This document shows positions 9,073 to 26,860 of a stretch of 64,000 nucleotides of DNA, piece by piece (position 1 is the stretch's first letter; every line of letters starts with the position of its first letter). Location: contig NZ_JAKQZG010000002.1 of assembly GCF_024359545.1 (NCBI RefSeq), positions 1 to 64,000 of the forward strand, given 5' to 3'. The position numbers and the translations under genes are program-made. This stretch comes from Jiella marina (GTDB lineage: Bacteria; Pseudomonadota; Alphaproteobacteria; Rhizobiales; Rhizobiaceae). The notes under the pieces are model-generated. The model was given only the letters and a program-made list of their open reading frames with translations, was not told the origin of the DNA and did no database searches.

Positions 9073-11217
9073 ATGCCCTCGAACATGATCCGCAACGCCA
9101 TTCTCGCCGGCACGGCCCTGACCGTGCTCGTCGCTGCGGCCACGCCGTTGCACGCCCAGTTGAGCGACGCCATCAACGACGCCATTCTCGGCGGCGGCTC
9201 CCAGCAGACCCAGCCGCCAGCGGCCCAGCCGCCGGCGGCCAACCCCGATCCACAGCCCGCCCCGGCCGCGCCCTCTCCTCCCAATCCGGAGCCGATCCCG
9301 GCGCCGGCAGCCGACGCCCAGCCGGCGCCCGACACGGCCACACCGGCCTATGCCAGCAATCCGACCCCGGTGCCCGGCAACACCGTCCCCGCCGCGACGC
9401 GGCTGCCGAACGGTGACGAGCCTTCGCTTGGTGAAGGCATCCGCCTGTCGCAGGACGAGATCTCGAACGGCAATGTCGGCTTCGCCCATGTGATCGAGAT
9501 CGGACGCCACCTGTTCACCCAGTCCTTCGTTGCGCGCGAAGGCTATGGCGAAGGGCCGACGGGCCCGCGCGAGAAGAAGCGCCGCCAGATGGTCAGCAGC
9601 GGTCTTGGCCCGATGGCACCGTTCGCGCAGATCCCCTGGATGCGCGTCCACGGCCTCGACGCCCAGGCCTGTCTCGAATGCCACAACGTCTCGGGTTTCG
9701 AGGATCTGGAAGGCGGCGTGACGCCGGGTCGCACGGTGCGGCCGGACCGGGTCTCCGGTGCCGGCGCCGTCACCTCGGCCGCGATCATCAATCCGCTTCT
9801 GGAAGATCCCGCGCCGCAATGGGTACTCGACGCCTTCCGCGAGCGCGGTGCCGCCGATCCCGGCAACATGTACGCCGTCTTCCTGCGCAATCCGCCCCAT
9901 GTTCTCGGCGCCGGCTACACCCAGAAACTCGCCGAGGAGATGACCTTCGACCTCCTGTCCCAGCGCCGCGCGGCGATCAGCCAGGCAGACTCGGCACGCG
10001 GCCAGTGGTACGAGATCCGTCTCAATTCCAAGGGCACGAATTTCGGCCGCTATCAGGTCCGCGTCGATCCGAGCGCTCCCTCTCCGGCCGGGCTTCTCCA
10101 GCCCTGCGGCGAGAATCCCGGACTGGTCGAGCGATGCGACGGCATCGAGGGCGTCAGCGAGGATTTCGTCGTGCGTCCCTTCCAGTGGAAGGGAATCGCC
10201 TCGAACATGCGCAATTTCGTTCGTGACGCGCTGAACTTCCACTTCGGCATGGTGCCGGTGGAACTCGCCCCGAACGATGCCGATCCGGATGGCGACGGGA
10301 TTGCCAACGAGGTTTCGGTCGGAGAGGTGACGGCGCTCGCCGCCTTCGCGCTCAGCGCCCGGCCGCCCTCGCAGGCGGCCCCGGCCGGCAACCAGGAGCA
10401 GGCGCAGGTCGCTCGCGGCCGCGAACTTTTCGAAGGCAGCGGTCTGGCGAATTCCGCCGATGCCTGCGTCACCTGTCACCAGGTGTCGAAGACCGTGCTC
10501 AACCCGGTGGTCACCGTGCACGACCCGCGTACCCCGGAAGCCGCCGCCATCGCCTCGCGCGAATCCGCTCGTGGCGGTCCGGCCCTCACGGTCACGGAAA
10601 ACGGTGTCGGCCTCGGTCAGGCGGCTCCGCGCGGCCTGCCGCTGCCGGTCGAACGGGAGTTCCTCGCCGGTGGCCAGACCTCGGCCCGCGAACGGGCGGT
10701 GACCCGGGAAAGCACCCAGGAGACCGGGCGGAACCTGCCGAACGGCGCCGCCTTCGCCTTCAACCTCAACATGAACACGCCGTCCGAGGACCGTGTCTAT
10801 CAGGCGTCTCAGCCGCGGCTGCCGTCCGATTCCACCGGTGCGATCGAGGTGCCGCTGTTTTCGGACCTGAAGCGTCACGCCATGGGCCGGTGCCTCGCCG
10901 ACGTCATCCGCCAGCAGACCGATCGCGAGGGCGTCTTCGTGCCGCGCGACCAGTATGTGACTCGCCCGCTCTGGGGTGTTGCGGATACCGGGCCGTGGCT
11001 GCATGACGGACGCGCGCTCAGCCTGCGCGACGCGATCCTGAAGCACGCCGACAGCGCCTGCCCGGATGACGGTTCCGGCCTCGTCAGCGAGGCGAACGGC
11101 GCGGTCGCCGCGTTCCAGGCCCTGTCGCCGGCCGACCAGGATGCGCTGATCGCCTTCCTGCGCACCCTGCGCCTGCCGCGGGACGCCAGCTTCGACAATG
11201 TCGCCGTGAACCGCTGA
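9073..11217 (+). CDS. Secreted di-heme oxidoreductase (DHOR/DUF1111-like)
   Basis: Predicted periplasmic c-type cytochrome of 714 residues. A signal peptide (to about TPLHA-Q) is followed by SDAINDAILGGG and then a Pro/Ala-rich linker (about 45-105). The catalytic part has two heme motifs, CLECH at 200-204 and CVTCH at 465-469, a DADPDGDGIANE loop typical of Ca sites (about 402-413), and near the C-terminus PLWGVADTGPWLHDGRA, the hallmark of the DHOR family. Substrate and electron partner are unknown. It opens the 9-27 kb cluster, which later encodes a mono-heme and a YceI protein. A hairpin follows the stop. An alternative ATG lies four codons in. Confidence 0.85.
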   Translation: MPSNMIRNAILAGTALTVLVAAATPLHAQLSDAINDAILGGGSQQTQPPAAQPPAANPDPQPAPAAPSPPNPEPIPAPAADAQPAPDTATPAYASNPTPVPGNTVPAATRLPNGDEPSLGEGIRLSQDEISNGNVGFAHVIEIGRHLFTQSFVAREGYGEGPTGPREKKRRQMVSSGLGPMAPFAQIPWMRVHGLDAQACLECHNVSGFEDLEGGVTPGRTVRPDRVSGAGAVTSAAIINPLLEDPAPQWVLDAFRERGAADPGNMYAVFLRNPPHVLGAGYTQKLAEEMTFDLLSQRRAAISQADSARGQWYEIRLNSKGTNFGRYQVRVDPSAPSPAGLLQPCGENPGLVERCDGIEGVSEDFVVRPFQWKGIASNMRNFVRDALNFHFGMVPVELAPNDADPDGDGIANEVSVGEVTALAAFALSARPPSQAAPAGNQEQAQVARGRELFEGSGLANSADACVTCHQVSKTVLNPVVTVHDPRTPEAAAIASRESARGGPALTVTENGVGLGQAAPRGLPLPVEREFLAGGQTSARERAVTRESTQETGRNLPNGAAFAFNLNMNTPSEDRVYQASQPRLPSDSTGAIEVPLFSDLKRHAMGRCLADVIRQQTDREGVFVPRDQYVTRPLWGVADTGPWLHDGRALSLRDAILKHADSACPDDGSGLVSEANGAVAAFQALSPADQDALIAFLRTLRLPRDASFDNVAVNR

Positions 11218-11241
11218 TCCGCACGTTCACGCACAAGCCTT

Positions 11242-11279
11242 CGCTCGCCCCGGTCGGATCTCCCTGGCCGGGGCGAGCG
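11242..11279 (+). terminator. Hairpin after the di-heme oxidoreductase gene
   Basis: CGCTCGCCCCGG (11242-11253) pairs perfectly with 11268-11279 across a 14-base loop, 25 bases after the stop. There is only a short T-rich tail, so termination may be partial. Confidence 0.6.
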
Positions 11280-11411
11280 CGTTTCGATCCCAAAGGGGTG
11301 GTGTGCCGCCTTTGTGGATCCGGACCACAGACTGCTCCCGAAGCTGAATCGATCTGAGCTTTCCACTCACGGCACGGAATGCAGCGAGCATTCGACGTGA
11401 GGAGAACAAAG

Positions 11412-12458
11412 ATGCGTTCGAAACTGACCACTACCGCCCTCTGGTCCACGATGTTCGCGGTCGGCGCAAGCCTGCTGCCGACGACCGCTGGAGCGGACGG
11501 ATATTACGGCCCGCGCGCCAGTGCTGCCCAGATCAACCGGATCATCGGCTCGTCCACCAGCCATGGCGGCTACGGCAGCCATGCGAGCTACAAGTCGCAC
11601 CACACCGGCTATTATGGCGGTTACAGGTCGCATCATCGCGGCTATGGCAGCTATTCCACCCATGTGGGCTACGGCCACTATTCCGGTTCCACCGGCCACG
11701 ATCTCGATGATTTCGATTATGTCGCGCGGCCCTACCGGAACTATGACGGCCGCCTCGTCTACAGCTACCAGACGGTTTCGCCGTTCACGGACACGGTCGA
11801 ATATGTCGAGATCGAAGAGTATTCGCAGCCCGTGAAGCGTTCGGCCTATCAGCCCGCGCCGATGGACGAGCCCGAGGCGCGCACCGATGTCGGACAGCCG
11901 ATCCTGTTCATGACCGGCAGCGAGCTGCTCAGCGAGACGGCCGTCGCCGATCTCGATAAGATCGGCGAGATCCTCGGTGCCTATACGGACACCGATGTGA
12001 AGATCCTACTCTCGGCCTATACCGACGCCTCCGGCACGCGCGAGCAGAACGTCCGGATTTCGACGAAGCGGATCGAGACGGTGAAGACCTATCTCACCGA
12101 GAAGTTCGAGATCCCGGCCGACCGCTTCGTGGAAGCGGCGATCGGCGAAGCGACCGCGCCCGGCGTAGACGACCCCTATGCCCCAGAAAACCGCCGGGTT
12201 GTCGTCTCGCTTCTGGGTGTCGATCTCGATCGCCCGGGCGATACGCCCGTCGCCAGCGCCAAGGGCGACGCCATGATGGACGACGCCGCGCCTCAGCCGA
12301 AGGCGAGCTACCGGGCCGCAGCTTACGAGACCTGCACGGTCCCGGCCTATCCCTATTCGTCGCAGAAGGTTACCGGCCGCCTCGTCGCCGCCGGCTTCCA
12401 GGATCTCGACGATTTCGGCGGCGGACGGCTGATCCAAGTGTGCAAGGTTTCCAACTGA
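11412..12458 (+). CDS. OmpA-domain protein with His/Tyr/Gly-rich N-terminus
   Basis: Predicted envelope protein of 348 residues. After a signal peptide (to about AGA-D) comes AQINRIIGSS (39-48), then a low-complexity region (about 50-95) rich in Tyr, Gly, Ser and His with SHH and YGS repeats. An OmpA-like peptidoglycan-binding domain follows (about 158-270) with TDASGTREQN, the RISTKRIETVKTYL helix and PENRRVVV. A C-terminal tail has two Cys (308, 344). The OmpA domain should bind diaminopimelate in peptidoglycan, anchoring the protein; the His-rich part may bind metal. The start at 11412 has a TGAGGAG site. It is the second gene of the 9-27 kb cluster and is followed by a hairpin. Confidence 0.85.
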   Translation: MRSKLTTTALWSTMFAVGASLLPTTAGADGYYGPRASAAQINRIIGSSTSHGGYGSHASYKSHHTGYYGGYRSHHRGYGSYSTHVGYGHYSGSTGHDLDDFDYVARPYRNYDGRLVYSYQTVSPFTDTVEYVEIEEYSQPVKRSAYQPAPMDEPEARTDVGQPILFMTGSELLSETAVADLDKIGEILGAYTDTDVKILLSAYTDASGTREQNVRISTKRIETVKTYLTEKFEIPADRFVEAAIGEATAPGVDDPYAPENRRVVVSLLGVDLDRPGDTPVASAKGDAMMDDAAPQPKASYRAAAYETCTVPAYPYSSQKVTGRLVAAGFQDLDDFGGGRLIQVCKVSN

Positions 12459-12488
12459 GCACCGGCACAGCCGGCTTCACCCGGTCTT

Positions 12489-12529
12489 GATCGTGGCGTG
12501 CGGACCTTAACCATCCGTTCGCCACGATC
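12489..12529 (+). terminator. Hairpin after the first OmpA-domain gene
   Basis: GATCGTGGCG (12489-12498) pairs perfectly with CGCCACGATC (12520-12529) across a 21-base loop, followed by TCCCTT. This is a possible weak terminator before the caspase gene. Confidence 0.5.
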
Positions 12530-12695
12530 TCCCTTGACGCAGCGTGCGGTCGGTCCCTCTGCCGGTGGCCTGTTCGGACCGCATCCCCGCCACGACAGAC
12601 CCGCGCGAGAGCACGGGAGCGGCCGCCAGGCCCCCGGACCTGTTCCCTGCCGTTAAGTTCATGCTAGAACTCTCTTGGTCATAGAGGATGACACG

Positions 12696-15600
12696 ATGAT
12701 GAGTGGAGTATCGAGCATCGGTTCTATCCTACGGCAAGTTGCGTCTTTCCTCGTCTTTTGTCTTGCGATCAATTTGTCCGTGGCACAGGCGCAGGAAAGC
12801 GAACGCTACGCGCGCGGCCTGCCGATCGCCGATCAGGCGCGCCTGGAGGTCACCTCGGCGATCGCCGGCATCCTGACCTCCAACTGCATCGCCCCTGACG
12901 CGCCACGTCCCTATGATCTGACCTATCTCGGCCTGCCGGCCGGTGACCCGCATGTCAGCGAGAACGTCCGCTCGCGCATCAATGGCGCGCTGCAGGAAGC
13001 GCTGCGCACCTCGGGTCTCGCCATCAACGTCAACACCGCGGAAAACGCCCGGGTACTCGTGCCGATCCTCGGCAGCGGCGCGGAGAGCGGCCGGCGACTG
13101 GAGCAGGTGGTCAACCGGCTCTACGCCTCGACCTTCGCGGTCGCCGTCCAGGCCACGCGGCCGACCGTCGACGTCGCCCGGCTCACCGTTTCGATCTTCG
13201 CGCGCTCGGGCTCGGGCTCCTACACCTGCAATCGCACCGTGACGCTCGACCTGCATCTGCCAAGCTTCACCGTCATCGAGAATTTCCGGGGACCGAGCGC
13301 CGATCTGGTCGAGCTTGCCGGTGCCTATCAGGCGGTTCTCGCCGGCATCGCACCGAAGCTGACCAATGCCAGCGCTCTCGCATTCCGGCCGGAAGTGCGG
13401 GTCGAGGGGATCTGCTCGCTTTCCGAACGCGCCTCCGACACCTTCACCACCGCCTATTTCCAGATGCAGGAAGGCGAACTCGCCGCCTGGCTCGACGGCA
13501 AGTCGCTGCCGGCGCTGAAGACCGGTCCGGTCGGTGACGGCGAGGACGGGATCGTCATGGACGTGACCTACCGCCTGCCGGACACGGCCGCGCGCCTCGT
13601 CGACCTGACCATCACGATCCGCTCCGAAAACACCGTCCTCGCCCGCCGCCGCGCCCTTGCCGTGACCGATGTGGACATGCTCGACGGTTGCCGCCCGGCC
13701 ACGCCCAGGGAGGCGGCCACGGACGAGGACAAGACGACCCGCCTCGCCGCCTCGAGCGACGACGGTGCGACGCCGGCCGGAGAAGAGATCGACACGAACG
13801 GTATCGCCAGCGACGGCAACGACTTCATCGGGGCAGACGATCGCAGTGACGACGGGCAGCCGCAGCGCCACCTCTTCGTCATCGCCAATCACGACTATCG
13901 CTATGCGGAGGGCGTGCGTTACGCCCAGCACGATGCGGCGGCGATCGAGAAGCTGTTCGTCGAGCAGTTCGGCCTCGCGCCCGCCAACATCACCCGCTAC
14001 GACAATTTGACCAAGGCCGAGCTCGAATATCTGTTCGGCGACGCCCGCAGGCCGGGCACGATCGCCAATCAGATCTCCTCGCCCGACGCGGAAGTCTATG
14101 TCTATTTCGTCGGCCACGGCTCGCGCGCCTTCATGGCGGCCCCGGACGACACGACCCCCTATCTTCTCGGCTCGGACAGCCGGGCCGACCGGCTCGACCT
14201 GACGGGTTACAATCTCAACGTCATGATCGAGCAGCTCGCGGCGATGCGCAAACGCATCTTTCCCAAGGGCCGGGCGATCGTGATGCTGGAAAGCTGCTTC
14301 TCCGGCCGCTCCGATGCCGGCGATCTGGTGACCGGCATCAGCGCCCCGAATTCCGGGACGCCGCCGCAGGTGAAGACGCAGGAAGGCGTGACGCTGATCG
14401 CGGCGGCCCATTCCGATCAGGTGGCCGTCTGGGATTCCGACTATCGCCACGGCGTGTTCACCGACGCTCTGGTCTCGGGCCTTTACGGCGAGGCCGACCA
14501 GACCCGCTTCGGCGGCAATGGCGACGGTATCATCACCGTCGGCGAGCTGGAGGATTTCCTGCAAACCCGCGTCTCGCGGCGGATCAAGCAGGTCCGGCCC
14601 GAATTCCGGCAGACGCCGGAAATCGCCGGGGCCACCGCATCCGAAATCCTGTTCCGGCTACCGGAAGACGGCGTCGGCCGGGAAGAGGCCACCGAACGCG
14701 AGCATTACGAGCGGCTGACGGCCCGCGAGATCCTGGAATCGAAGAATCTCGGCGGGGTGCAATCCTATCTGCGCGGCTGCGTCTACTGCCCACTCAAGAA
14801 CGAATTGCGCGAGCTCGTGCAGAACGAGCGCCGCCGCGAGGCGGTCTGCCGGGCCGAGGAGCGGCACGCCGCGGACCTCCTGCGGCGCGGCAGCAAGCTG
14901 GAGATCGGTGCCTATCTGCAAAGCTGCGAATGCTGCCAGAAGCGGCAGGAGCTGGAACAGGAACTCGCCAAGCTGAAGGCGCCCGATCCGGCCGCCCTGA
15001 AGGACGAAGCCCTTTGGACGGCGGCCGAGCGGGACGGTACCATCGATGCCTACTGGTACTATGTCCAGAACTGCGAGGAATGCACGAAAAAGGACGAGGG
15101 CGAAAAGAAGGTCGCCGACATCTGCGAGCGGGCCCAGGCGACGGTCGATTCCCAATGGCCGGTCGACAAGTCCTATGACGGGCTGTTGCGCTATCTCGCC
15201 AGCTGCAACGACATGCCGCCGGTCTGCGGCGCCTGCCGACGGATTTCCGAGGCGATCAATCTTGTCGCCGAGATCGAGAGCCGGCCGGACTTTTCCTCCG
15301 GCGAGGCGGTGCTCGCCTCGCGCGGCGGCCAGCAGCCCGAAATGGCCGCTCCTGCCGATGCCGAGGATCGGCAAGCTTACCGGACGGTGATGCAGTCCTC
15401 GAACTCGGACGATTACGACGCCTTTCTGGAGCGTTTCCCCACCAGCGTCTACGTGCCCGAGATCAAGGAGCGTCTGACCAATCTTCTGGCCGAGGAAGCC
15501 ACCTGGGAAGAGGTCAGCAACGCCCATTCGGTGGAGGCTTATCGCCGCTACGTCTCGCAATATCCGAGCGGAGACCACCTGCGCGAAGCCCGCCGGAGGA

Positions 15601-15749
15601 TCGAGATGCTCGAGGACGAATCGGACTGGCAGGAGGTGCTGATCGAGCGCTCGCGCGACGCGCTCGTGGAGTATCTCGCCAAGCGGCCCAGGGGCCGCTA
15701 CTCCGAACAGGCACGACGGTTGCTGCGCGAGTTCGACCAGAACGGATGA
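12696..15749 (+). CDS. Secreted caspase-like (C14) protein with Cys-rich tandem repeats
   Basis: Predicted exported protein of 1017 residues. Layout: signal peptide (1 to about 33); an N-terminal region of unknown fold (about 35-335) with several Cys; an acidic linker; a caspase-like domain (about 390-655) with the catalytic pair His474 (YFVGHGSR) and Cys534 (IVMLESCFSGR), plus an EF-hand-like loop GNGDGIITVGELEDF; and a C-terminal tandem repeat region. In the first four repeats (about 680-850) a YLxxC motif is followed closely by further Cys (C695/C698, C744/C746/C747, C793/C796, C837/C844/C847). The last repeats (about 905-1010) have instead the FPTS, YPSG and RPRG type found in other bacterial caspase-like proteins. 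The start at 12696 has an AGAGGA site. Substrate unknown; caspase-family proteases usually cut after basic or acidic residues. Confidence 0.88.
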   Translation: MMSGVSSIGSILRQVASFLVFCLAINLSVAQAQESERYARGLPIADQARLEVTSAIAGILTSNCIAPDAPRPYDLTYLGLPAGDPHVSENVRSRINGALQEALRTSGLAINVNTAENARVLVPILGSGAESGRRLEQVVNRLYASTFAVAVQATRPTVDVARLTVSIFARSGSGSYTCNRTVTLDLHLPSFTVIENFRGPSADLVELAGAYQAVLAGIAPKLTNASALAFRPEVRVEGICSLSERASDTFTTAYFQMQEGELAAWLDGKSLPALKTGPVGDGEDGIVMDVTYRLPDTAARLVDLTITIRSENTVLARRRALAVTDVDMLDGCRPATPREAATDEDKTTRLAASSDDGATPAGEEIDTNGIASDGNDFIGADDRSDDGQPQRHLFVIANHDYRYAEGVRYAQHDAAAIEKLFVEQFGLAPANITRYDNLTKAELEYLFGDARRPGTIANQISSPDAEVYVYFVGHGSRAFMAAPDDTTPYLLGSDSRADRLDLTGYNLNVMIEQLAAMRKRIFPKGRAIVMLESCFSGRSDAGDLVTGISAPNSGTPPQVKTQEGVTLIAAAHSDQVAVWDSDYRHGVFTDALVSGLYGEADQTRFGGNGDGIITVGELEDFLQTRVSRRIKQVRPEFRQTPEIAGATASEILFRLPEDGVGREEATEREHYERLTAREILESKNLGGVQSYLRGCVYCPLKNELRELVQNERRREAVCRAEERHAADLLRRGSKLEIGAYLQSCECCQKRQELEQELAKLKAPDPAALKDEALWTAAERDGTIDAYWYYVQNCEECTKKDEGEKKVADICERAQATVDSQWPVDKSYDGLLRYLASCNDMPPVCGACRRISEAINLVAEIESRPDFSSGEAVLASRGGQQPEMAAPADAEDRQAYRTVMQSSNSDDYDAFLERFPTSVYVPEIKERLTNLLAEEATWEEVSNAHSVEAYRRYVSQYPSGDHLREARRRIEMLEDESDWQEVLIERSRDALVEYLAKRPRGRYSEQARRLLREFDQNG

Positions 15750-15769
15750 ACCCGCCGGCAGAACGACAT

Positions 15770-15802: not shown

Positions 15803-15834
15803 TCTTTGGCAAAGACGCGAGAATGAGGTTCGGC

Positions 15835-17310
15835 ATGGGGCAGCCCGACACGCTCTTCACCTGGTCCGAGACCGCGCAGACGGAGTTCGAGGCGCTGGTC
15901 GATGGGACGGACGCGACGGATCGCTTCCGCCTGGCGCTCGCCCAGACGATCGCCAATGGCTGGGGCTCCAATCGCGACAAGCCGATCTGGGCGCTCGCCT
16001 CGACCCTTGCCCTTCTCGGCGACACGCAAGCCGGCCTCGGCAGCAGTCTCGATCTCCTCTGGGCCCAGCCGACCAAGCTGATCGCCCATCTGCGCGGGTC
16101 GGGCCATCCGGCGGTGGCGGCCAATGACGGCGGTTCGGTGCATCTGAAACTGCCGGGCGGCGCGCTGATGCTGGACCGGTTCCGGCTGCGGCTCCTGCAG
16201 AAATATCTGGAATTCCTGATCTCCTGCAACGGCTTCCAGCATTCCGAAGAGATCACCGTCGGGCTCGATGCCTGTCTGGCCAATGGCCTCGCGGACAAGG
16301 CGACGATCGAGACGACCGTGAAAGCGATCGCACGGATACTCTACCGCTACCGCACCGAACATTTCGACGACGGACACGCCACGTCCGCCTTTTCGATCCT
16401 GCGCGCCTATCTCGCCTCCGCCGGCGACGTGATCGATGACGACACCGTCTTCGCCTTCTGGACCGCCGAGGACAACAAGCACTTCCGCACCTATCAGGCG
16501 AGCTTCTTCGCCCTGAAGGACTATGTCGACGCGCTGGCCGCCGCCCGGGCCCGCTCGGCGATGCGCCGGGCCGGCGAGATCGACGCGCCCGGCATCGCGG
16601 GCGAGCTTTCCGTCGATTTCGTCGACCCGTTCGAAATGGCCGAAGAGGCCGATGAAGAGGATATCGCGGAAGCCGCCGAACAGGCTGCAGCCGCCCGCCA
16701 TGAGGCCGGCGAGGAAGGCACCAGCGCGGCTCTCAAGGCGATCGCCGACGGCGAGGTGAAGATCCTGAAGAAGAAGGAGGAAATGCTGGCCGCCCCGATC
16801 ATCTCCTCGGGCGAGTTCGGCTGCAGCCTGCCGGTGGCGACGGTCCGGCTCCTGGCGTTCCACCCGATTCAATCTGCGCTTTCCAATTCCTTGAGGACAG
16901 GTCGGGCAACGCTCCCCCTCGAACAGCGCGTGACCTGCGTGGAAGCCCGCCGCTATGGCGATCTTCTGGAAGAGGTGGAGAAGCTCGAAACCGCCATGAC
17001 GGAATGGCTCAAGATCGCCTTTGCGGTGCGTTCCGAGGAAGCCTCGGGCAATGCAAGGGCGGATGCGATCCGGGCGGAGGGCGTGGCCCTTCTGAAGAGC
17101 CGGCGCAGCCAGTCCCTGGCACGACCGCGAGAGGAACTCGCCGCAGCCTTCGCTGCCGTCGAGAGAGCGCTCGTCACGGTCGCCCGCGGACTGGGAGCCT
17201 ATCGGACGGCCGCCCGCGGCCGCCTGGGCACCGGCGACACGGTCGACGCCGGCTTCGAATCCGACAGGGCGCGCTTCGCCGAGCATCTGCGCCGGCTGTA
17301 TGTGAACTAA
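15835..17310 (+). CDS. Unknown cytoplasmic protein in the protease cluster
   Basis: No family is recognised. The 491-residue product has no signal peptide or membrane segment and looks largely alpha-helical. The first 240 residues are a compact helical region (RFRLALAQTIANGWG, LMLDRFRLRLLQKYLEFLISCNG, AIARILYRYR). A very acidic segment follows (about 265-290, EEADEEDIAEAAEQ), and then a second helical region with a long amphipathic stretch. The start at 15835 is chosen because GAGG lies six bases upstream; an ATG four codons earlier lacks a site. The next gene begins 41 bp after its stop, and together with the following two genes it forms a block of cytosolic or membrane-tethered components. 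It may be a scaffold or regulator, which is inference. Confidence 0.75.
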   Translation: MGQPDTLFTWSETAQTEFEALVDGTDATDRFRLALAQTIANGWGSNRDKPIWALASTLALLGDTQAGLGSSLDLLWAQPTKLIAHLRGSGHPAVAANDGGSVHLKLPGGALMLDRFRLRLLQKYLEFLISCNGFQHSEEITVGLDACLANGLADKATIETTVKAIARILYRYRTEHFDDGHATSAFSILRAYLASAGDVIDDDTVFAFWTAEDNKHFRTYQASFFALKDYVDALAAARARSAMRRAGEIDAPGIAGELSVDFVDPFEMAEEADEEDIAEAAEQAAAARHEAGEEGTSAALKAIADGEVKILKKKEEMLAAPIISSGEFGCSLPVATVRLLAFHPIQSALSNSLRTGRATLPLEQRVTCVEARRYGDLLEEVEKLETAMTEWLKIAFAVRSEEASGNARADAIRAEGVALLKSRRSQSLARPREELAAAFAAVERALVTVARGLGAYRTAARGRLGTGDTVDAGFESDRARFAEHLRRLYVN

Positions 17311-20026: not shown

Positions 20027-21061
20027 ATGGCGATCCAGCCCTCCAAGAAAACCGCCTCTTCCCGCATCGGCCTGTGCGCTCTCTTCGCCGCCGCGCTGAT
20101 GGGAAGCGCCGCTCTGCCCTCGAACGCCGAAGCCTTCGATTTCAAACTGCCGGCAAGCGATTACGGCGAGGTCGTCCTGCCGCTGCGCCAGTCGCTCGGC
20201 GACGCCGCGCGTGACGTCATCGACCGGAAGAACGTCTTCGAGCCGGTCGGCCTCCTGCGGGAAGACGACCCGGTGCGCCAGCTCGCGCGGTCCGTCGGCC
20301 GACTCGACCTCAAGGTCGAGGAGGATGGCCAGCAGTTCCTCTCGACCTGCACCGCCACCATCGTCGAGGGCGGGCTGGTCCTGACCAATTACCACTGCAT
20401 TCCGGGCTTTTCCGGGAAGGTTCTCGAGGCTTCGCTGCTGCTCGACTATTACGGGCCGGACAGCCAGACCACGCGTATTCCCGTGGAGACCACACCGGTC
20501 GAACAGGACCAGACACTCGACTATGCGCTCGCCCGGCTTGCCGGTCCGGTGCCGGAAGGGCTTCAGCCTCCGTCGTTCACCCCCGATCGCTCGCGGCCCC
20601 TCGAACGCCTCCTCGTCATCCATCACCCGGCCGGCCAGCCGAAGATGATGACGCAGTTCCGCTGCTACGCCGCCCAGTCCCAGGACGAAGGGCCGAAGCT
20701 GCGCCATCGCTGCGATACGCTGCCGGGCTCCTCGGGCGCTCCGATCTTCAACACCGAACGCCAGGTGATCGGCATCCACCACAGCGGCGGGCTGAACGAG
20801 AACGATCCGAACAGTTTCAATCAGGGTTCGAACAGCTCCGACATTCTTCTGAAGAGCGCTTTCCTCCATGCCCCCGCTGCCGGCGCTCCGCAGGACGATG
20901 CCACACCCGTGGCCACCGCCCCGAGCAACGGCACCACGCAACCGGCTGCCGCCGAGCAACCGTCGGTCGGCCGCAGCGACGCCGGCGGCCCGGCCCAGAA
21001 CAGCTTCATCAATGGCGGCGTCGACCCGGCGGCAGAATACAACAAGCTGCTGTCGCAATGA
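20027..21061 (+). CDS. Secreted trypsin-like serine protease (S1 fold)
   Basis: Predicted periplasmic protease of 344 residues. The signal peptide ends near SNAEA. The chymotrypsin-fold triad is complete: His123 in LTNYHC, Asp165 in TLDYALARL, Ser236 in LPGSSGAPIF, with VIGIHHSGG following the nucleophile as in trypsin-like enzymes. Further Cys at 108, 124, 213 and 229 could form disulfides. The last 70 residues are Pro/Ala/Gln-rich and end in a short ordered tail (AAEYNKLL). There is no PDZ domain, unlike DegP. It begins 12 bp after the preceding gene. It might be activated by, or activate, the subtilisin and caspase encoded nearby, which is inference. Confidence 0.88.
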   Translation: MAIQPSKKTASSRIGLCALFAAALMGSAALPSNAEAFDFKLPASDYGEVVLPLRQSLGDAARDVIDRKNVFEPVGLLREDDPVRQLARSVGRLDLKVEEDGQQFLSTCTATIVEGGLVLTNYHCIPGFSGKVLEASLLLDYYGPDSQTTRIPVETTPVEQDQTLDYALARLAGPVPEGLQPPSFTPDRSRPLERLLVIHHPAGQPKMMTQFRCYAAQSQDEGPKLRHRCDTLPGSSGAPIFNTERQVIGIHHSGGLNENDPNSFNQGSNSSDILLKSAFLHAPAAGAPQDDATPVATAPSNGTTQPAAAEQPSVGRSDAGGPAQNSFINGGVDPAAEYNKLLSQ

Positions 21062-21141
21062 TCGAGGGCGGCAGCAGAAATCGCTCTGACGATTCCACTG
21101 ACCTGACAAACGAACAACCGCATCAAAAGGCGTAGGAAAAA

Positions 21142-22167
21142 ATGGCGATGATGACGGGTCTGACCTTTCAACCGAAAACGCGGATCGCGGCGAACACGCG
21201 CAAGCAGCGGGTCCTGACGCGCGCCCTGCTTGCGGGTCTCCTGGCCGCCACGGTTCCGGCAACGACCATCTTCGTCTCGCCGGCCGCTGCCCAGGCGACC
21301 CAGAACAGTGGGATGACCGAGCGCGCCGAGCGGATCGTGAAGTCGCTGCGTCCGGCCGCCCAGAGCCGCTATTCCGACGCCGCCTACACCAATCGCATCA
21401 TCCAGATGGAGATCCCACTGCCGCGGCAGAACGGCAGCAAGACCATCGTGCTGAACTACAACCACTCGATCGATCTCGCGGTCTACTACAATTTCGACAG
21501 CTCGAAGATCACAAGGGAGACCGCCGAGGTTCTCGACGATCTGGGCTACGCGCTGCAGGCCAGCGAATTGTCCGGCAGCCAGTTCCTCGTCGCCGGCCAT
21601 ACCGACGCGTCGGGCTCCGACAGCTACAATCAGTGGCTCTCGGAACGCCGCGCCCTCTCCGCCAAGCGCTATCTCGTCGAGAACTTCCGCATCAATCCGG
21701 AGCGCCTGATCGTCGTCGGCTTCGGCGAAACGCGGCTTGCCGATGAGCGCCGGCCGCGCGACGGGATCAACCGCCGCGTCGAGATCACCCTGATCGAAGA
21801 CGCCTATCGCGGCCCCACCGCCGAGCGTTTGACAGCGCCGCGTTCCACCTATCAGGGCGGCGAAGCCGCGACGCCGGAAGAGCTCGGCCTGGTTGAATAT
21901 GGCTCCCGGCCCGCCCCCGCCCCCGTCACCGATTGCGACGGAACGCAGAATATCCGGGACAACCGGCCCGCCAATACCGGGCTCGACGATTTCGGCAATC
22001 GGCCCACGCCGGTCCCCTGCGGCGACCCGGCCCAGGCCGACGATGCGGCAGCCGCCCCGGCCGCTCCGCAGCCGGCGCCTGCGCCACCGGCCTCGAGCAA
22101 CGCGACGCCCGTCGTCCCCGCGCCGGCCAATCCGGCTTCCGGCCAGAACTCGGCCATCACGAACTAG
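21142..22167 (+). CDS. OmpA-domain peptidoglycan-binding protein
   Basis: Predicted envelope protein of 341 residues with an unusually long signal sequence (about 50 residues, ending near SPAAA-Q). The OmpA-like domain (about 108-218) has the YNFDSSKITRET strand, GHTDASGSDSYNQWLSERRA with the conserved Asp and Arg, VVGFGETRL and INRRVEI. The C-terminal 110 residues are a low-complexity Pro/Ala-rich tail with two Cys. It should bind peptidoglycan non-covalently and tether partners in the periplasm. The start has a TAGGA site. It is the second OmpA-domain gene of the cluster; the two are not close paralogues outside this domain. Confidence 0.88.
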   Translation: MAMMTGLTFQPKTRIAANTRKQRVLTRALLAGLLAATVPATTIFVSPAAAQATQNSGMTERAERIVKSLRPAAQSRYSDAAYTNRIIQMEIPLPRQNGSKTIVLNYNHSIDLAVYYNFDSSKITRETAEVLDDLGYALQASELSGSQFLVAGHTDASGSDSYNQWLSERRALSAKRYLVENFRINPERLIVVGFGETRLADERRPRDGINRRVEITLIEDAYRGPTAERLTAPRSTYQGGEAATPEELGLVEYGSRPAPAPVTDCDGTQNIRDNRPANTGLDDFGNRPTPVPCGDPAQADDAAAAPAAPQPAPAPPASSNATPVVPAPANPASGQNSAITN

Positions 22168-22269
22168 GAGGTGCCGCCACGACCCATGCCTCCTTACCCA
22201 TCGGCCGGCCGAACATGCCGTCCAGACATCAAAACCTGAACGCCCCACTCTGAAAACTGGAGAGCCCAC

Positions 22270-23289
22270 ATGAAGACGCTTGCCAAGACTGCCGCCATCG
22301 CCGTTCTCGGCGTTTGCGCCATGGCCACCACCTCCTACGCCGCGACGATCAACGTCATGGTGGTCCAGGAGGACTGGGATCCGGAAAGCCTCGTCCGCAA
22401 CAACCGCATCCAGAACGCGGTTCTTTCGACCTTCAACCAGACGCTCAATTCGCCGGCTTACCAGTCGCGGATCCAGCAGTACGGCATCGACGGCATGGAC
22501 GTCTATGACGAGACCGCCACGACGCTGACCTTCTACCAGCAGGATCGCCAGCGCCGCACCGACGAAGAGCTGATCTCGCTGGTGCGCACGGTCAAGAACC
22601 CGCAGATGGACTACATCGTGCCCTACACGATCTATGCCCGTGCGGTGACCGACCCCTACACGCAGATCGTCTCGCTGCAGATGTCGCTGAACTACCGCGC
22701 TCTCGACGTGCGTAGCGGCCGCTTCGTCGGCGGCGACAATCTCGACATCGACACGGCGGGCGTGCCCTTCCAGGGCTGTGCCGCCGGCCTGAACGGCACC
22801 GCGGCCGACCCGCACTGCGTCAAGGAATTCGTGTCGCGCTATGGCGAGCAGCTGGCCCGCAACGCCGGCAACAAGCTCGCGATCCAGCTCGCCGCCCTTC
22901 TCGGCCGGCAGTATGGCGGCGCCTCGGCGGGCGAGCCGGTGAACGATGCGATCGGCGGCACCGACATCGCCGGCCTGCCTTCGGGCGGCGCGGGCGGCAG
23001 CGTCTGCGACAACCCGCCGACCACCTTCGCGGTCACCTTCCGCGGCTTCGAGCAGCGCCAGATGAACGCGGTCGAAGAGTACATGTCTTACTGGAAGTGC
23101 GCGATCGACCTCGACGTCACCGCTTCGGACTTCTCGGAGATCACCTTCTCCTACAAGACCCGCTCCGACCAGCAGCGCATCCTGCGCAATGTCCGCCTGA
23201 TGCTGGAGCTGATGGGAACGATCGCCGAGCCGCAGACCCAGGGCGCAAACGAGATCGTCGTCGAAGCCCTCGGCATTCGCGAAAACTGA
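22270..23289 (+). CDS. Secreted protein of unknown family
   Basis: Predicted periplasmic protein of 339 residues with a clean signal peptide (MKTLAKTAAIAVLGVCAMAT, cleavage near SYA-A). The mature part begins with an alternating strand/helix layout (ATINVMVVQEDW, RIQNAVLSTFNQTL, MDYIVPYTIYARAV, QIVSLQMSLNYRALDV). This is reminiscent of CsgG/LpoB/TolB-N type envelope domains, but the resemblance is too weak to assign. It has a VNDAIGG segment at 224-230, Cys at 170, 183, 241 and 277, and a C-terminal strand/helix domain. A CTGGAGAG site precedes the start and a strong intrinsic terminator follows, so it closes a transcript. Function unknown. Confidence 0.75.
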   Translation: MKTLAKTAAIAVLGVCAMATTSYAATINVMVVQEDWDPESLVRNNRIQNAVLSTFNQTLNSPAYQSRIQQYGIDGMDVYDETATTLTFYQQDRQRRTDEELISLVRTVKNPQMDYIVPYTIYARAVTDPYTQIVSLQMSLNYRALDVRSGRFVGGDNLDIDTAGVPFQGCAAGLNGTAADPHCVKEFVSRYGEQLARNAGNKLAIQLAALLGRQYGGASAGEPVNDAIGGTDIAGLPSGGAGGSVCDNPPTTFAVTFRGFEQRQMNAVEEYMSYWKCAIDLDVTASDFSEITFSYKTRSDQQRILRNVRLMLELMGTIAEPQTQGANEIVVEALGIREN

Positions 23290-23301
23290 TCCCATGATCC
23301 T

Positions 23302-23337
23302 GGCAGCGCCGGCCGATCGAGCCGGCGCTGCCTTCTT
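23302..23337 (+). terminator. Strong intrinsic terminator inside the 9-27 kb cluster
   Basis: GGCAGCGCCGGC (23302-23313) pairs perfectly with GCCGGCGCTGCC (23321-23332) across a seven-base loop and is followed by TTCTT. It lies 13 bases after the preceding stop and separates the first transcript block from the subtilisin gene. Confidence 0.8.
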
Positions 23338-23396
23338 CGTCGCTGCGGCGCCACCGGCGTCGCAAATTCTGGCCGCCACGAGTGGAGCTTCATGAG

Positions 23397-25166
23397 ATGC
23401 GTCGGTTCATCCTCCCCGCCCCTCGGTCTTCGCGTCGCGGCCCATCATGGCCGATTGGCCTCGGATCTCTGGTGGCAGCCGGCCTCGCCCTTCAGGCCCT
23501 CCCCGCCTCGGCTCAGACCAGTCTCGATCAGGCCGCCAGCCAGATTACTCCCGGCGCCGCTCCAGCCCTCGTTCCGCCGACCTCGCAGCTCTTCGACCGT
23601 AGCCGGGTCCTGCTCACCCTCCGTCCCGGCGAAACGCCCGAGAGCCTGCGCCAGGAAGCGGCACGCCGGCAGCAGGAATCCTCGACCGGCGCGATGGACA
23701 CGACCATGGCGGCCCTCGCCGCGGCCCGTTCCCAGGGCGACAGGGTGATGACGATCTCGCTTCCTTCAGGAGTCCAGGAAAGCGCCAACGGGTCCGCTCC
23801 CCTCGCCATGATGCCTCCCTCCGGGGATTTCGCGGCCTCCCTGTCACCCGAAGCGGCGCGCATCGTCGAGACATTGCGTCAGATGCCACAGGTTGCGACC
23901 GTCGAGCCGAACGGCATGCGCTTTGCCCTGCAACAGCAGGACCCTGCCGACGCCTTCAACCAGTTGCTCGGCACCAGCCAGCCTGCCGCCGGGGGCCGCT
24001 CCCAGCGCGCCACGCCGAGCGCAGGGACGATCGACCAGATCATCGGCGGGGGCACGGTTCGTGGGCCGATCGTCTCGGGCAGCGTGCCAGTCCTGCCCGA
24101 CGATCCGCTTACCCCGATGCAGTGGCACCTCTTCGCGAATGCCCCGACCCAGGCGGCCGATCGTCTGCCGGGCGGCACCGGCTTCCTCGCCTATCGCTCG
24201 GCAGGCCCTCGAGGCACCGGCGCGACCGGCCCGGTCGTTGCGATCATCGACACCGGCCTCGTCGCCCAGCATCAGGATCTTGCGCGCGATCGTATCCTGC
24301 CGGGCTACGACTTCATCACGCTGCCCTTCGTCGGCAATGACGGCGACGGGCGCGACGCCGACCCGACCGATACCGGCGACGGCAACGAGGCCAATGCGTG
24401 CTTCACGGGCTCGCCGCCGCGCGGCAATACCTGGCACGGCTCCCACGTGGCGGGCATTGCCGGCGCCGTGGAATCGGACAATCGGCTGGGCATCACCCTG
24501 CCGGGTGCGCCTGTCCGCATCATGCCGGTGCGAGTCCTCGGTCGCTGCGGCGGCTTCGATTCCGACATTATCGACGCCATGCGCTGGGCCGCAGGCCTAC
24601 CCGTCGAGGGCGTGCCGGCAAATCCCAATCCGGCCAAGGTCGTGAACATGTCTCTCGGCGGACCGGGAACCTGCGCGACCGCCTTTCAGGAAGCGGTGGA
24701 TGCCGTGCTGGCCGCCGGAGCGACGATCGTCGTCGCCGCCGGCAACAGCGCTGAAGACGCGCAGATGGCCTCGCCGGCAAGCTGCACCGGCGTGATCACG
24801 GTCGCAGCCTCCGATGCTCGCGGCGTCATCTCGCCCTTTTCGAATTACGGGCCGCGGATCGACATCATGGCGCCAGGCGGCGACGTTCGCCGGGACGACG
24901 ACCGCAATGGACGGCCGGACGGCATCCTGTCCCTCGTCTCGGGCGGCTACGAATTCAAGGAGGGCACGTCGATGGCAGCGCCCCTCGTCGCTGCCGCTGC
25001 CGCGCTGCTTCTGTCCGATCGCCCCGATCTGGCGCCGAGCGGCGTCCGCTCGGCGCTGATCGCTTCGGCGCTTCCGCGAAACGACCAGCAATGTCCCCGG
25101 GGCTGCGGGGCCGGCCTCCTCCAGATCCCGTCCGACCCGGGCCAGATCTCCGCAGGCCGGCAATGA
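23397..25166 (+). CDS. Secreted subtilisin-like serine protease (S8)
   Basis: Predicted exported protease of 589 residues. A twin-arginine-free signal peptide (to about PASA-Q) is followed by a long pro-region (about 45-235) resembling I9-type inhibitors (RVLLTLRPGE ... VATVEPNG). The pro-region contains IDQIIGGG (212-219) just before the start of the mature enzyme. The S8 triad is intact: Asp285 in VVAIIDTG, His347 in WHGSHVAGIAG, Ser525 in EGTSMAAPLVAA, with the oxyanion Asn450 in AAGNS. Several extra Cys (335, 384, 426, 463, plus two near the C-terminus) suggest disulfides. The start at 23397 has GGAG about ten bases upstream. It is the first gene after an internal terminator. Confidence 0.9.
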   Translation: MRRFILPAPRSSRRGPSWPIGLGSLVAAGLALQALPASAQTSLDQAASQITPGAAPALVPPTSQLFDRSRVLLTLRPGETPESLRQEAARRQQESSTGAMDTTMAALAAARSQGDRVMTISLPSGVQESANGSAPLAMMPPSGDFAASLSPEAARIVETLRQMPQVATVEPNGMRFALQQQDPADAFNQLLGTSQPAAGGRSQRATPSAGTIDQIIGGGTVRGPIVSGSVPVLPDDPLTPMQWHLFANAPTQAADRLPGGTGFLAYRSAGPRGTGATGPVVAIIDTGLVAQHQDLARDRILPGYDFITLPFVGNDGDGRDADPTDTGDGNEANACFTGSPPRGNTWHGSHVAGIAGAVESDNRLGITLPGAPVRIMPVRVLGRCGGFDSDIIDAMRWAAGLPVEGVPANPNPAKVVNMSLGGPGTCATAFQEAVDAVLAAGATIVVAAGNSAEDAQMASPASCTGVITVAASDARGVISPFSNYGPRIDIMAPGGDVRRDDDRNGRPDGILSLVSGGYEFKEGTSMAAPLVAAAAALLLSDRPDLAPSGVRSALIASALPRNDQQCPRGCGAGLLQIPSDPGQISAGRQ

Positions 25167-25225
25167 CGGCAACCCTAAAGCCCCCTTCGCCCCTATCCGT
25201 TCGAGAGTGACGCGAGGTATAACGA

Positions 25226-25888
25226 ATGCCAAGAATCCAACTCTTCTTCGCAATGCTGATCGGCGCGTTGACCTTGTCGGCACCCGCGCTGGCGCAGTCA
25301 TGCGACAATTATCGTGTCGATGCGCGTCTGTTGAACATGCGGGCCGAGCCGAACGTCTTCGGGACGATCCTCGACGTCCTGCGCCAGAACGAACTCGTCT
25401 GCATCTCGCGCAGCCAGAACACCACCGGACAGGACTGGGGCTACGTCGTCTCCAAGAGTAGGCCCGACGGCACGGGAACCCAGACCGTCGAGGGATGGAC
25501 CAGCCTGCGCTATCTGAGCCGAGTCGAAACGCCCAGCGCGCCGACCCCGCCGAGCACGGCCGATGGCGGTCCGTCCGGGCCGACGCCGGTATCTGAACCC
25601 GTGGATCTGAACTTCACCGATCCGGTCCCCTTCGGCCCGTTCCCGGTGCGCGGGCGCAGTCTGGAACAATTGGCCAACAGCCTTCCGCTGTTCTCGCCCA
25701 TCGACGGCCTGCCCGAAGACCGCTGGAAGCAGAAATGCGTGACCTGCCACCAGTGGAACAAGGACCGTCTCTGCGATCAGGGCAAGTCCTATGCGGGCAA
25801 TCCGGTCAACATCATCCGGATCAAGCATCCCTATGGCGGCCCCTACAAGAAGGCGCTCGCCACCTGGTCCGAGAGCGGCTGCCAATAG
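25226..25888 (+). CDS. Secreted SH3-like protein with mono-heme motif
   Basis: Predicted periplasmic protein of 220 residues. Signal peptide to about PALA-Q. An N-terminal bacterial SH3-like domain (about 25-100) has the RLLNMRAEPNVFGTILDVL start and VEGWTSLRYL end. A Pro/Thr/Ser-rich linker follows (about 100-135), then a C-terminal part with one c-type heme motif, CVTCH, and further Cys in RLCDQ and at the end (GCQ). The pairing of an SH3 fold, which often binds peptidoglycan or peptides, with a single heme site is uncommon. It could be an electron carrier held near the cell wall. A GAGG site precedes the start, and the gene is 59 bp after the subtilisin gene and 60 bp before the YceI gene. 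Confidence 0.8.
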   Translation: MPRIQLFFAMLIGALTLSAPALAQSCDNYRVDARLLNMRAEPNVFGTILDVLRQNELVCISRSQNTTGQDWGYVVSKSRPDGTGTQTVEGWTSLRYLSRVETPSAPTPPSTADGGPSGPTPVSEPVDLNFTDPVPFGPFPVRGRSLEQLANSLPLFSPIDGLPEDRWKQKCVTCHQWNKDRLCDQGKSYAGNPVNIIRIKHPYGGPYKKALATWSESGCQ

Positions 25889-25900
25889 ATCGGCCGCCGC

Positions 25901-25918
25901 GCCGCCCCGTGGGGCGGC
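25901..25918 (+). other. GC-rich hairpin between the SH3/heme and YceI genes
   Basis: GCCGCCCCGTGGGGCGGC is a perfect 18-bp palindrome just after the stop codon. It has no T tract. It may stabilise the upstream message or weakly attenuate transcription. Confidence 0.45.
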
Positions 25919-25948
25919 ACGCCAAGATGAAAAGAAGGAGCGCATTCC

Positions 25949-26860
25949 ATGCTGAGGAAACGCATCGCGCTTGCCGCCGGCGCTTTTTCGGTGGCGATGT
26001 CCGTCGGGACAGCAGCCGGGGCTTGCGAGTTCTACAAGGCGATCGACACCCGGTCCGAACTCTTCGACATGCCCGACAGCGGCGCCGGCCTTGCCGTCGC
26101 CATCCTGCCGGAGGCCTCGCAGGCCTGCGTCATGGAGGAGAAGACCGACGGTTCGGGGCAAACATGGTACCGGCTGGCCTTCTACACGGCCGATGACATC
26201 AAGTACAATGTCGATGGCTGGGTTCGCGAGGGTGCGGTCGCCGACGCGCAAACGCCCCCCACCCAGGTCGCCGCCGTCGAAAATGCGCGGCAGGCACAGC
26301 CCGAGCAATCCGGCGGCAAGGAAGCCTTTTTCGCCCGCGACTGGACCCTCGACAAGACCCGTTCTCAGATCAATTTCATCACCATCAAGAAGGGCACGGT
26401 GATCGAGACCCACAGCTTCGGCGATCTCGAAGGATCGGTGAGCGCGGACGGGACGGCCGAACTCAAGATCAAGCTCGAATCCGTCAACACCGGAATCGAC
26501 ATCCGCGACGTCCGGATGCGCTTCCTCCTGTTCAATGTCGATGAATTCCCCGAAGCGGAAGTGACGGCGAAGATCGACCCGGCCGCGATCGACCGGATCT
26601 GGGACGACGCCACGATGAAATATGATCTGCCGATCACGGTTTCGATCCGCGGGCTCAGCCAGGAGTTCACCGTTCCGGTAATCATTTCCCGCCTGAAGGA
26701 CGATATGGTCTCTGTGGTCTCGGCCTCGCCGGTGACGGTGAGCGGGTCCGATTTCGGCATGGAGGACGGCCTGAAGAAGCTCAGCGAGGCGGCGGGCGAC
26801 ATCGCCATCACGCCCTCGGCCCCGGTGACCTTCGATCTCGCCTTTGTTCCGGCGAGTTGA
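25949..26860 (+). CDS. Secreted SH3-like / YceI-domain protein
   Basis: Predicted periplasmic protein of 303 residues. A signal peptide ends near TAAG-A. An SH3-like N-terminal domain (about 25-100) parallels that of the preceding gene (Cys at the start, a second Cys mid-domain, VDGW near the end). A linker leads to a YceI domain (about 130-300) with WTLDKTRSQINFIT, RDVRMRFLLF and the FPEAEVTAKI strand. YceI proteins are lipocalin-like barrels that bind polyprenyl compounds such as ubiquinone, so a link to redox chemistry with the heme proteins of this cluster is plausible. The start has an AAGGAG site. It is the last gene of the cluster. Confidence 0.85.
   Translation: MLRKRIALAAGAFSVAMSVGTAAGACEFYKAIDTRSELFDMPDSGAGLAVAILPEASQACVMEEKTDGSGQTWYRLAFYTADDIKYNVDGWVREGAVADAQTPPTQVAAVENARQAQPEQSGGKEAFFARDWTLDKTRSQINFITIKKGTVIETHSFGDLEGSVSADGTAELKIKLESVNTGIDIRDVRMRFLLFNVDEFPEAEVTAKIDPAAIDRIWDDATMKYDLPITVSIRGLSQEFTVPVIISRLKDDMVSVVSASPVTVSGSDFGMEDGLKKLSEAAGDIAITPSAPVTFDLAFVPAS

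Follow-up and report, generated by a model that had tools for sequence, protein, structure and literature searches.

The known systems that come nearest to the locus analyzed here include ternary conflict systems, Tol-Pal and outer-membrane ring proteins, Lon-type proteases and bacterial orthocaspases. The vWA-MoxR-iSTAND ternary conflict systems are described, in the passages of Kaur et al. (2020, PMC7159879) concerned with them, as carrying caspase-like and trypsin-like peptidases together with OmpA, PEGA, Sel1 and FGS domains, partly behind a membrane helix, and the FGS domains are given there as sulfatase-modifying. Bacterial orthocaspases with DUF4384 were treated in another report, whose main text nowhere mentions OmpA, periplasm, trypsin or operon (PMC7475262). 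In this work, we analyzed a window of 64,000 nucleotides, meaning the whole stretch of Jiella marina DNA under study, in which 13 plus-strand ORFs fill positions 9073-26860. We consider it about 45% probable that this cassette is one functional unit, encoding a trans-envelope assembly in which a switch with cytosolic and membrane parts sets proteases and a peroxidase held at the wall to work. The features are listed below; Pfam matches were counted above the curated cut-offs, and the signal peptides of exported products were judged by eye.

9073..11217, plus strand: g01, exported di-heme (DHOR-type) peroxidase-like protein (Pfam DHOR 31 bits, cut-off 22; two CxxCH)
9172..9195, plus strand: common motif in g01
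11412..12458, plus strand: g02, exported OmpA-family protein, OmpA1 (Pfam OmpA 38.6 bits, cut-off 27.2, scan from 11379)
11532..11552, plus strand: common motif in g02
12675..15749, plus strand: g03, exported caspase (C14) with fused caspase-partner domain (Pfam Peptidase_C14 42.3 bits, cut-off 21.4); start uncertain, candidates 12675, 12696 and 12699
12909..13544, plus strand: segment of g03 whose homologue in other loci is a separate neighbour (the L016 protein aligns with residues 79-290)
13869..14633, plus strand: C14 domain of g03
15835..17310, plus strand: g04, cytosolic helical protein of unrecognised family, core signature gene (alternative start 15823)
17352..17888, plus strand: g05, cytosolic protein of unrecognised family, core; after g04 in 40 of 44 mapped loci
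17902..19251, plus strand: g06, single-pass membrane protein, core (AlphaFold2 model; 38 of 44 mapped loci)
18064..18627, plus strand: Lon-protease-fold domain of g06, residues 55-242
18292..18294, plus strand: Ser131 of g06, invariant in 28/28 sequences
18433..18435, plus strand: Lys178 of g06, invariant in 28/28, aligned with the Lys of the archaeal Lon PVGGVTQK segment
18766..18819, plus strand: predicted membrane helix of g06, about residues 289-306 (model helix, hydrophobicity by eye)
18889..19248, plus strand: C-terminal domain of g06, presumably periplasmic, related to g07 (model; invariant Cys 343 and 374)
19292..20014, plus strand: g07, exported relative of the g06 C-terminal domain (hhalign E 6.8e-6)
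19415..19435, plus strand: common motif in g07
20027..21061, plus strand: g08, exported trypsin-like (S1) protease (Pfam Trypsin_2 63.1 bits, cut-off 27.6; His, Asp, Ser)
21142..22167, plus strand: g09, exported OmpA-family protein, OmpA2, whose position in the layout is like that of Pal (Pfam OmpA 71.9 bits, cut-off 27.2)
22270..23289, plus strand: g10, exported, with a predicted TolB-N/FlgT/CsgG-like fold (residues 25-211) and a second alpha/beta domain (residues 247-336)
23382..25166, plus strand: g11, exported subtilase (S8) with prodomain (Pfam Peptidase_S8 177.2 bits, cut-off 21.8); start uncertain, 23382 or later
24030..24050, plus strand: common motif in g11, ahead of the protease domain
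25226..25888, plus strand: g12, exported SH3-like protein with one CxxCH (SH3_3 17.2 bits, E 0.0059, below the cut-off of 27)
25949..26860, plus strand: g13, exported YceI protein (Pfam YceI 53.8 bits, cut-off 23.7)

The ORFs and Pfam matches bear out the earlier note on this DNA, which had described thirteen consecutive plus-strand genes for these proteins, and its di-heme and mono-heme proteins are recognisable as g01 and g12 by their CxxCH motifs. The catalytic residues that it reported for the C14, S1 and S8 proteases were all seen in the window copies of g03, g08 and g11. In the case of g03, membership in the C14 caspase family was indicated by both the Pfam match and the His/Cys dyad, carried by GHG and SCF motifs; g08 also matches Pfam Trypsin above the cut-off. 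No Pfam family matched g04, g05, g06, g07 or g10 at E 0.1, and g04 had no match in Pfam, NCBIfam, PHROGs or PADLOC. The profile of g04 gave PDB rows only at E 0.017 or worse, mostly designed helical proteins. The hairpins that had been taken to mark at least two or three transcripts did not hold up, as terminator-like sites numbered 7 versus 11.9 in shuffled sequences. One strong intergenic hairpin lies at 23302-23332, at the border of g10 and g11, and its T tail is poor.

All 13 genes were found in the same order in Jiella endophytica, J. sonneratiae, Aurantimonas sp. 22II-16-19i and Aurantimonas sp. VKM B-3413, in the last of these beside flanking genes that match none of those in the window. 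A Fulvimarina MAG also has all 13, spread over two contigs, and a Rhodobacteraceae MAG has 12 of them, with S8 missing. The 13 genes are thus a real conserved unit. The site is empty in one genome of the same genus (G566), which is more likely a loss, since the cassette and its flanks are common to relatives. A mobile origin was considered and rejected: the Pfam matches of the 13 genes included no integrase or transposase, g04 had no match in 72,556 plasmid records, the N-terminal part of g06 had none in 50,697 phage records, and the flanks are shared with relatives.

The g04-g05-g06 core is spread more widely than the 13-gene cassette. Of 385 class genomes, 20 carry g04, and among 398 genomes of the phylum it was found in 6 that lie outside the class. 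At E < 1e-40, g06 was present in 19 of the 385 class genomes, all within the 20 that have g04; in two genomes (G672 and G768) the strong g06 match lies on a different contig from g04. The g10 gene was detected in 16 of the 20 class genomes bearing g04 versus 6 of the 365 others. Among the 44 mapped g04 loci, g05 was present in 40, g06 in 38, g10 in 31, OmpA in 19, C14 in 15, an S1-type protease in 15 and S8 in 8. These counts are without a false S8 match (L086) and without L062 (on the contig that also carries L017), L056 (lacking g04; its MAG still enters via L058), L018 and L021 (flank pieces), while L026 (G088) lies outside the mapped set by its weak g04 match (E 4e-4). Two genomes contribute two loci each, namely G203 (L048, L054) and G822 (L093, L098).

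The earlier note had proposed a neighbourhood search with its proteins of unknown family, to see whether the proteases come back as well. The core does recur, and any of C14, S1 and S8 lies within about 10 kb of g04 in only 19 of the 44 loci, some of which are cut by contig ends, so that homologues scattered without the proteases, which the note held to speak against its proposal, are seen in part. Because of this count, the proteases seem to be effectors that can be swapped on a conserved core, not obligatory components. The place of the peroxidase is taken by two unrelated families, DHOR in the window and an animal-type enzyme in L016, the latter found also in L017 and L025 with a profile built in this analysis. 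Signalling would agree with two further layouts, namely L052, where g06 is fused to a kinase or TonB_C, and L051, where an FHA protein has a kinase as its neighbour. The wide version of the locus also encodes two membrane proteins, tm196 and a small one-helix protein whose helix starts with a conserved Thr-Glu; by eye the two resembled TolQ/ExbB and TolR/ExbD. This candidate pair was dropped as unsupported: Pfam MotA_ExbB matched 1 of 11 tm196 members, at E 0.8 only, a PDB profile search gave nothing relevant, and comparison of the tm196 profile with four MotA/ExbB-type proteins of its own genome gave a probability of 0.2%. In a search of 13 genomes, tm196 was missing from the 11 of window type. 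The one-helix protein was checked in Pfam, NCBIfam and PADLOC with one member only.

Lon and Lon-like (S16) proteases include ATPase-less and membrane-bound forms. The predicted model of g06 contains the fold of the Lon proteolytic domain according to the VIA structure comparison; in plain Foldseek output non-Lon chains came top and the Lon-type RadA stood at row 22, so that the Lon fold is prominent only in the VIA comparison. Profile matches of g06 to Lon in the PDB were sub-threshold (E 0.2-0.8), with 13 of the 15 rows of Lon type and a designed protein as the best row (E 0.06). The invariant Ser and Lys of g06 may correspond to the catalytic Ser-Lys dyad of Lon, and the Lon alignment covers the Lys178 segment, not Ser131. 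It differs from Lon in its serine site, GxSW instead of GPSAG, in its one membrane helix followed by a presumably periplasmic domain, and in the lack of the AAA+ ATPase domain of LonA and LonB: its 449 residues have no Pfam domain, and the model consists of the Lon domain, a helix and the C-terminal domain only. The earlier label of a Lon-like membrane protein is therefore correct by fold, though no Pfam model matches. The g10 protein, earlier counted among exported unknowns, has a fold that can be recognised: structure matches of the predicted model assign its N-domain to the common alpha/beta fold of TolB-N/CsgG/FlgT-type ring proteins. At the level of sequence, none of 25 g10 members matched the Pfam models TolB, CsgG or FlgO at E 1, and the g10 profile gave no PDB row at E 10.

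Shared domains and motifs, also named in the earlier note, were confirmed. The C-terminus of g06 and g07 share a domain (hhalign probability 85%), and the motif [IVL][ND]x(A)[ILV][ILVF]G[GSD] is common to g01, g02, g07 and g11. Among the family-labelled proteins of the loci, 18 of 281 carry it, versus 4 of 547 others (Fisher P 4e-6; 1e-4 without the window rows), for a pattern picked after viewing the window and orthologues that are not independent. At least one of the 18 motif-bearing proteins (L088 g10) resembles a chance match. The motif was also compared with double-glycine processing sites, and this identity was rejected, given the partial likeness, the variable spacing and the lack of a C39 peptidase match when the 13 genes were compared with Pfam. 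The g03 caspase is fused to a protein that stands as a separate neighbour in other loci, and DUF4384 was found in 5 of 13 scanned partner-type proteins. The C14 His/Cys, S1 His/Asp/Ser and S8 Asp/His/Ser residues are kept in every aligned relative with residues at those columns; partial copies have gaps there.

The anatomy of the proposed assembly is well supported by the gene composition, order and co-inheritance, the folds predicted for g06 and g10, the domain and motif sharing and the catalytic residues. The function is inferred, and with it complex formation, the direction of signalling, protease activation, its stimulus and any cleavage by the Lon-fold domain. In the cytosol, g04 and g05 would act together with the Lon-fold domain of g06, which would span the inner membrane once and place in the periplasm a domain common to g07. 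The OmpA proteins, as peptidoglycan anchors, and g10, expected at the outer membrane and perhaps as a ring, would make up the outer part. The caspase, trypsin-like protease, subtilase, di-heme peroxidase, mono-heme protein and YceI protein would serve as periplasmic effectors or accessories, several exported products bearing the common, possibly docking-type motif. In the most likely working, an envelope or cytosolic stimulus would change the g04-g05-g06 switch, and the enzymes held at the wall would then be licensed in response to envelope stress, contact or attack. The earlier proposal, a proteolytic and redox assembly of the periplasm that is anchored to peptidoglycan and connected to the cytosol through a single-pass protein, agrees with the tests that were possible and is supported in this form.

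The genes might instead serve structural upkeep of the envelope, of the Tol-Pal or flagellar H/T-ring kind, with g10, OmpA, g07 and g06 bridging the envelope and the proteases and peroxidase acting as untriggered quality control. The fold that g10 has in common with TolB-N and FlgT, the adjoining OmpA gene and the wide version with SLT transglycosylases (18 of 44 loci) and a lipoprotein (15 of 44) agree with this. We nevertheless hold it unlikely, as the patchy presence and the absence within the genus are unusual for upkeep and no relative of TolQ, TolR or TolA could be demonstrated. Export or surface assembly at the outer membrane, where g10 and OmpA would form a conduit or its collar in the manner of CsgG and PelC and the proteases would mature or police the product, is a doubtful explanation. 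It draws on CsgG and PelC, which are among the structural matches of g10, and on the serine hydrolase and, where the left flank is visible, the sugar-nucleotide gene manC that the cassette adjoins in the window and four relatives; yet the manC neighbourhood is not kept at the cassette of Aurantimonas VKM B-3413, and by Pfam none of the 13 genes encodes an export ATPase, usher or glycosyltransferase or is a polymer gene.

That envelope genes adjoin by chance or common regulation, with no joint task, seems very improbable. Effector content does differ from locus to locus, and gaps of 80-215 bases at several gene borders permit several transcripts; against this stand the 13-gene order, kept even beside unmatched flanks, the co-occurrence of core genes over 385 genomes, the caspase lying about 10 kb or less from g04 in 9 of 36 g04-bearing genomes versus 0.6 expected, and the fusion, the shared domain and the shared motif. 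Going beyond the switch-controlled assembly that we prefer, we suggest only tentatively that it represents a new class of extracytoplasmic execution system in Pseudomonadota. Its Lon-type switch, ATPase-less, anchored in the membrane and joined by two cytosolic partners, might control a wall-anchored set of caspase, trypsin, subtilase and peroxidase, which the common linear motif would hold on an outer ring of TolB/FlgT-like kind. Such a system could conceivably be a periplasmic counterpart of cell-death or immunity protease cascades.

If the preferred reading is true, a widespread bacterial envelope-spanning system couples the cytosol to exported caspases, serine proteases and heme peroxidases. 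Exported bacterial caspases would gain a physical setting, and a single unit of 13 genes would allow direct tests of their role. An ATPase-less membrane Lon domain would be added, together with two core families, g04 and g05, for which no relatives are recognised.

The PADLOC defence models gave no match to g04, g05, g06, g07 or g10 and the rows for g03, g08, g09 and g11 were all generic (caspase, trypsin-type, OmpA/MotB-type and subtilase), in a scan without g01, g02, g12 and g13. A full-text search, with bioRxiv and most subscription papers outside its scope, gave no description of such a system in titles or abstract starts among the matches listed; the combination of three kinds of protease with a heme peroxidase in an envelope-reaching machine appears not to be described in the literature searched. 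With the Tol-Pal/FlgT/CsgG/PelC ring proteins, g10 shares the N-domain fold, and an OmpA-family gene directly precedes it, but it lacks a beta-propeller, and TolQ, TolR and TolA are not among the 13 genes by Pfam. The orthocaspases, as far as that main text presents them (PMC7475262), likewise have a C14 domain with His and Cys, and DUF4384 recurs here in partner-type proteins, whereas the present caspase is exported, as judged by eye, and lies within a multi-protease envelope cassette. The ternary conflict systems, in the passages cited (PMC7159879), are similar in repertoire, and one L051 protein joins kinase, PEGA and FGE-sulfatase domains. Pfam finds none of their defining MoxR, vWA and iSTAND components in the 13 genes; the present cassette has g04-g05-g06 as its core, and its products are mostly exported.

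The window covers the first 64 kb of its contig, in a genome of 5.08 Mb. It includes the following features:

3599-3829, minus strand: small exported peptide, rich in His and Lys, with repeated units
9073-26860, plus strand: cluster of 13 genes
35835-43079, downstream of the cluster: flagellar genes (FlhB, FliG, and MotA-type by eye)
40086-40388: MotA_ExbB match, among the flagellar genes

In the cluster, matches above the Pfam cut-off were obtained for DHOR, OmpA (two genes), C14, trypsin, subtilase, and YceI. No Pfam family was matched by g04 and g05 (cytosolic proteins), g06 (single-pass membrane protein), g07 (related to the C-terminus of g06), or g10 (TolB-N/FlgT/CsgG-like). PADLOC and PHROGs gave no family for these five proteins, and NCBIfam returned a single marginal row, for g05. 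For all three protease classes the catalytic residues were present in the window copies, and likewise in aligned relatives having residues at those positions. The Pfam matches and catalytic residues bear out the gene content described in the earlier note; its division of the cluster into at least two or three transcripts, drawn from hairpins, was weak.

The 13 genes are one unit. Named genomes were scanned with a g10 profile, which gave eight loci, a set that may exclude the record of the window itself and those very close to it; DHOR was present in all six genomes searched behind such loci. The gene order of relatives' stretches was compared with the window by BLASTP. Jiella endophytica, J. 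sonneratiae, and Aurantimonas sp. 22II-16-19i each have all 13 genes in order, and the serine-hydrolase and DUF1476 genes that come next are also those of the window. The opposite flank in J. endophytica and Aurantimonas 22II is formed by PGM and manC; the J. sonneratiae contig stops about 1 kb beyond g01 and has one unmatched gene there. In a Fulvimarina MAG the 13 genes are spread across two contigs, one carrying g01-g10 with manC and PGM adjoining, the other a partial S1, OmpA2, g10, and g11-g13, then the hydrolase. Aurantimonas sp. VKM B-3413 holds 13/13 in order, with flanks that match no window flank gene. A Rhodobacteraceae MAG has 12 genes (without S8) at 34-68% identity, its left flank unmatched and its right one a contig end. 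In the same-genus genome G566 the cassette is absent, and the hydrolase directly adjoins manC and PGM (identified by reading the sequence), with about 300 bases between. Since the order is kept in relatives and G566 has an empty site, the borders first proposed from the sequence are right and are those of a cassette kept whole and able to be absent.

Beyond these relatives, the system has a conserved core and variable partners. The signature gene g04 was found in 10 of 199 genomes of the order (own genome counted; one match weak), 20 of 385 of the class, and 12 of 398 of the phylum, six of the 12 lying outside the class, in three families. At E <1e-40, g06 was found in 19 of the 385 class genomes, all within the 20 with g04; 12 further genomes of this set gave only weak matches (E 5e-13 or worse). 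In G672 and G768, g04 and the strong g06 match are on different contigs. Stops break the g04 and g06 frames at locus L099 (G840); related genomes have both whole. The g10 gene was present in 22 class genomes (16/20 with g04, 6/365 others). The own genome also carries two distant g10 relatives, G000:C40:94128-95048 (E 1.5e-22) and G000:C3:166637-167032 (E 2.9e-15, with a stop codon within the match).

With home-made profiles, 44 g04 loci were mapped up to about 10 kb each side; because contig ends cut several loci and many are related, the counts are descriptive. The core genes g05 and g06 were present in 40 and 38 loci, and g10 in 31. Among the partners, OmpA was found in 19, SLT transglycosylase in 18, the caspase-partner protein in 16, and C14, S1-type, and S8 proteases in 15, 15, and 8 (any of the three in 19). 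As a control, C14 gave 126 matches in ~159 Mb over 36 g04-bearing genomes; it was near g04 in 9 of the 36, versus 0.6 expected by chance (P ~3e-9). Outside the window, the own genome has another C14 gene (G000:C13:30168-30821, minus) with a MotA_ExbB gene (33051-33422, plus; whole stretch 30168-33422) some 2 kb away.

Two versions were distinguished. In that of the window, the core is surrounded by OmpA, g10, proteases, heme proteins, and YceI; Jiella, Aurantimonas, and Fulvimarina have this version, and modified forms of it occur elsewhere in the order. The wide version comes from class members that do not belong to the order and from the three families beyond the class. In it (L048-L053, L085-L102), g04-g05-g06 is joined by a small protein with one helix, by SLT transglycosylases and a lipoprotein, and by a further five families, exported or in the membrane, that have no Pfam name; many loci arrange these genes nearly alike. 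At L051 one protein with kinase, PEGA, and FGE-sulfatase domains adjoins an FHA protein and g04; at L052:12124-14745 the g06 relative joins a Lon-like N-terminus, a Ser/Thr kinase, and TonB_C. These arrangements fit g06 as a signalling membrane protein. At some 5-15 kb beyond the cluster of another genome (L021:824-10100, G196) lie genes that by eye resemble an SPFH/MoxR/DUF5682/WGR group of the kind present in other conflict-type clusters.

Over residues 79-290 the caspase g03 shows homology to a protein that other loci encode separately, close to g04, so the window caspase is a fusion of two system members. Among 13 scanned proteins of this caspase-partner kind, DUF4384 was found in five and CsgG in one. 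The peroxidase also varies: the window has DHOR, whereas L016 has an animal-type heme peroxidase (Pfam), as do L017 and L025 (home-made profile). Several products share the motif Ile/Val-Asn/Asp-x-(Ala)-Ile/Leu-Ile/Leu-Gly-Gly or a close variant. In g01, g02, and g07 it lies shortly past the apparent signal peptide, whereas in g11 it separates the prodomain from the protease domain; in relatives, it is also carried by an S1 protease and by a peroxidase of animal type. It was enriched (18/281 versus 4/547; P 4e-6, or 1e-4 without the window rows), the pattern having been picked after the fact. Our guess is that it serves for docking.

In the proposed working, g04, g05, and the Lon-fold domain of g06 would form a cytosolic switch, and OmpA, g10, and g07 a scaffold in the wall and outer layer; the enzymes would sit on this scaffold and be released or activated by a signal. 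The outcome may be repair, attack, or self-destruction. We favour a role in stress or conflict over upkeep because the system is patchily distributed, a sister genome has probably lost it, and peptidases occur together with peroxidases.

The nearest published theme found is that of the conflict systems described by Kaur et al. 2020 (PMC7159879), in whose iSTAND branch caspase, trypsin, OmpA, PEGA, and sulfatase-modifying domains occur together. Unlike those systems, the 13 window genes include no MoxR or vWA protein. Within the literature searched, we call the present system categorically new, built of known folds and two families without recognised relatives.
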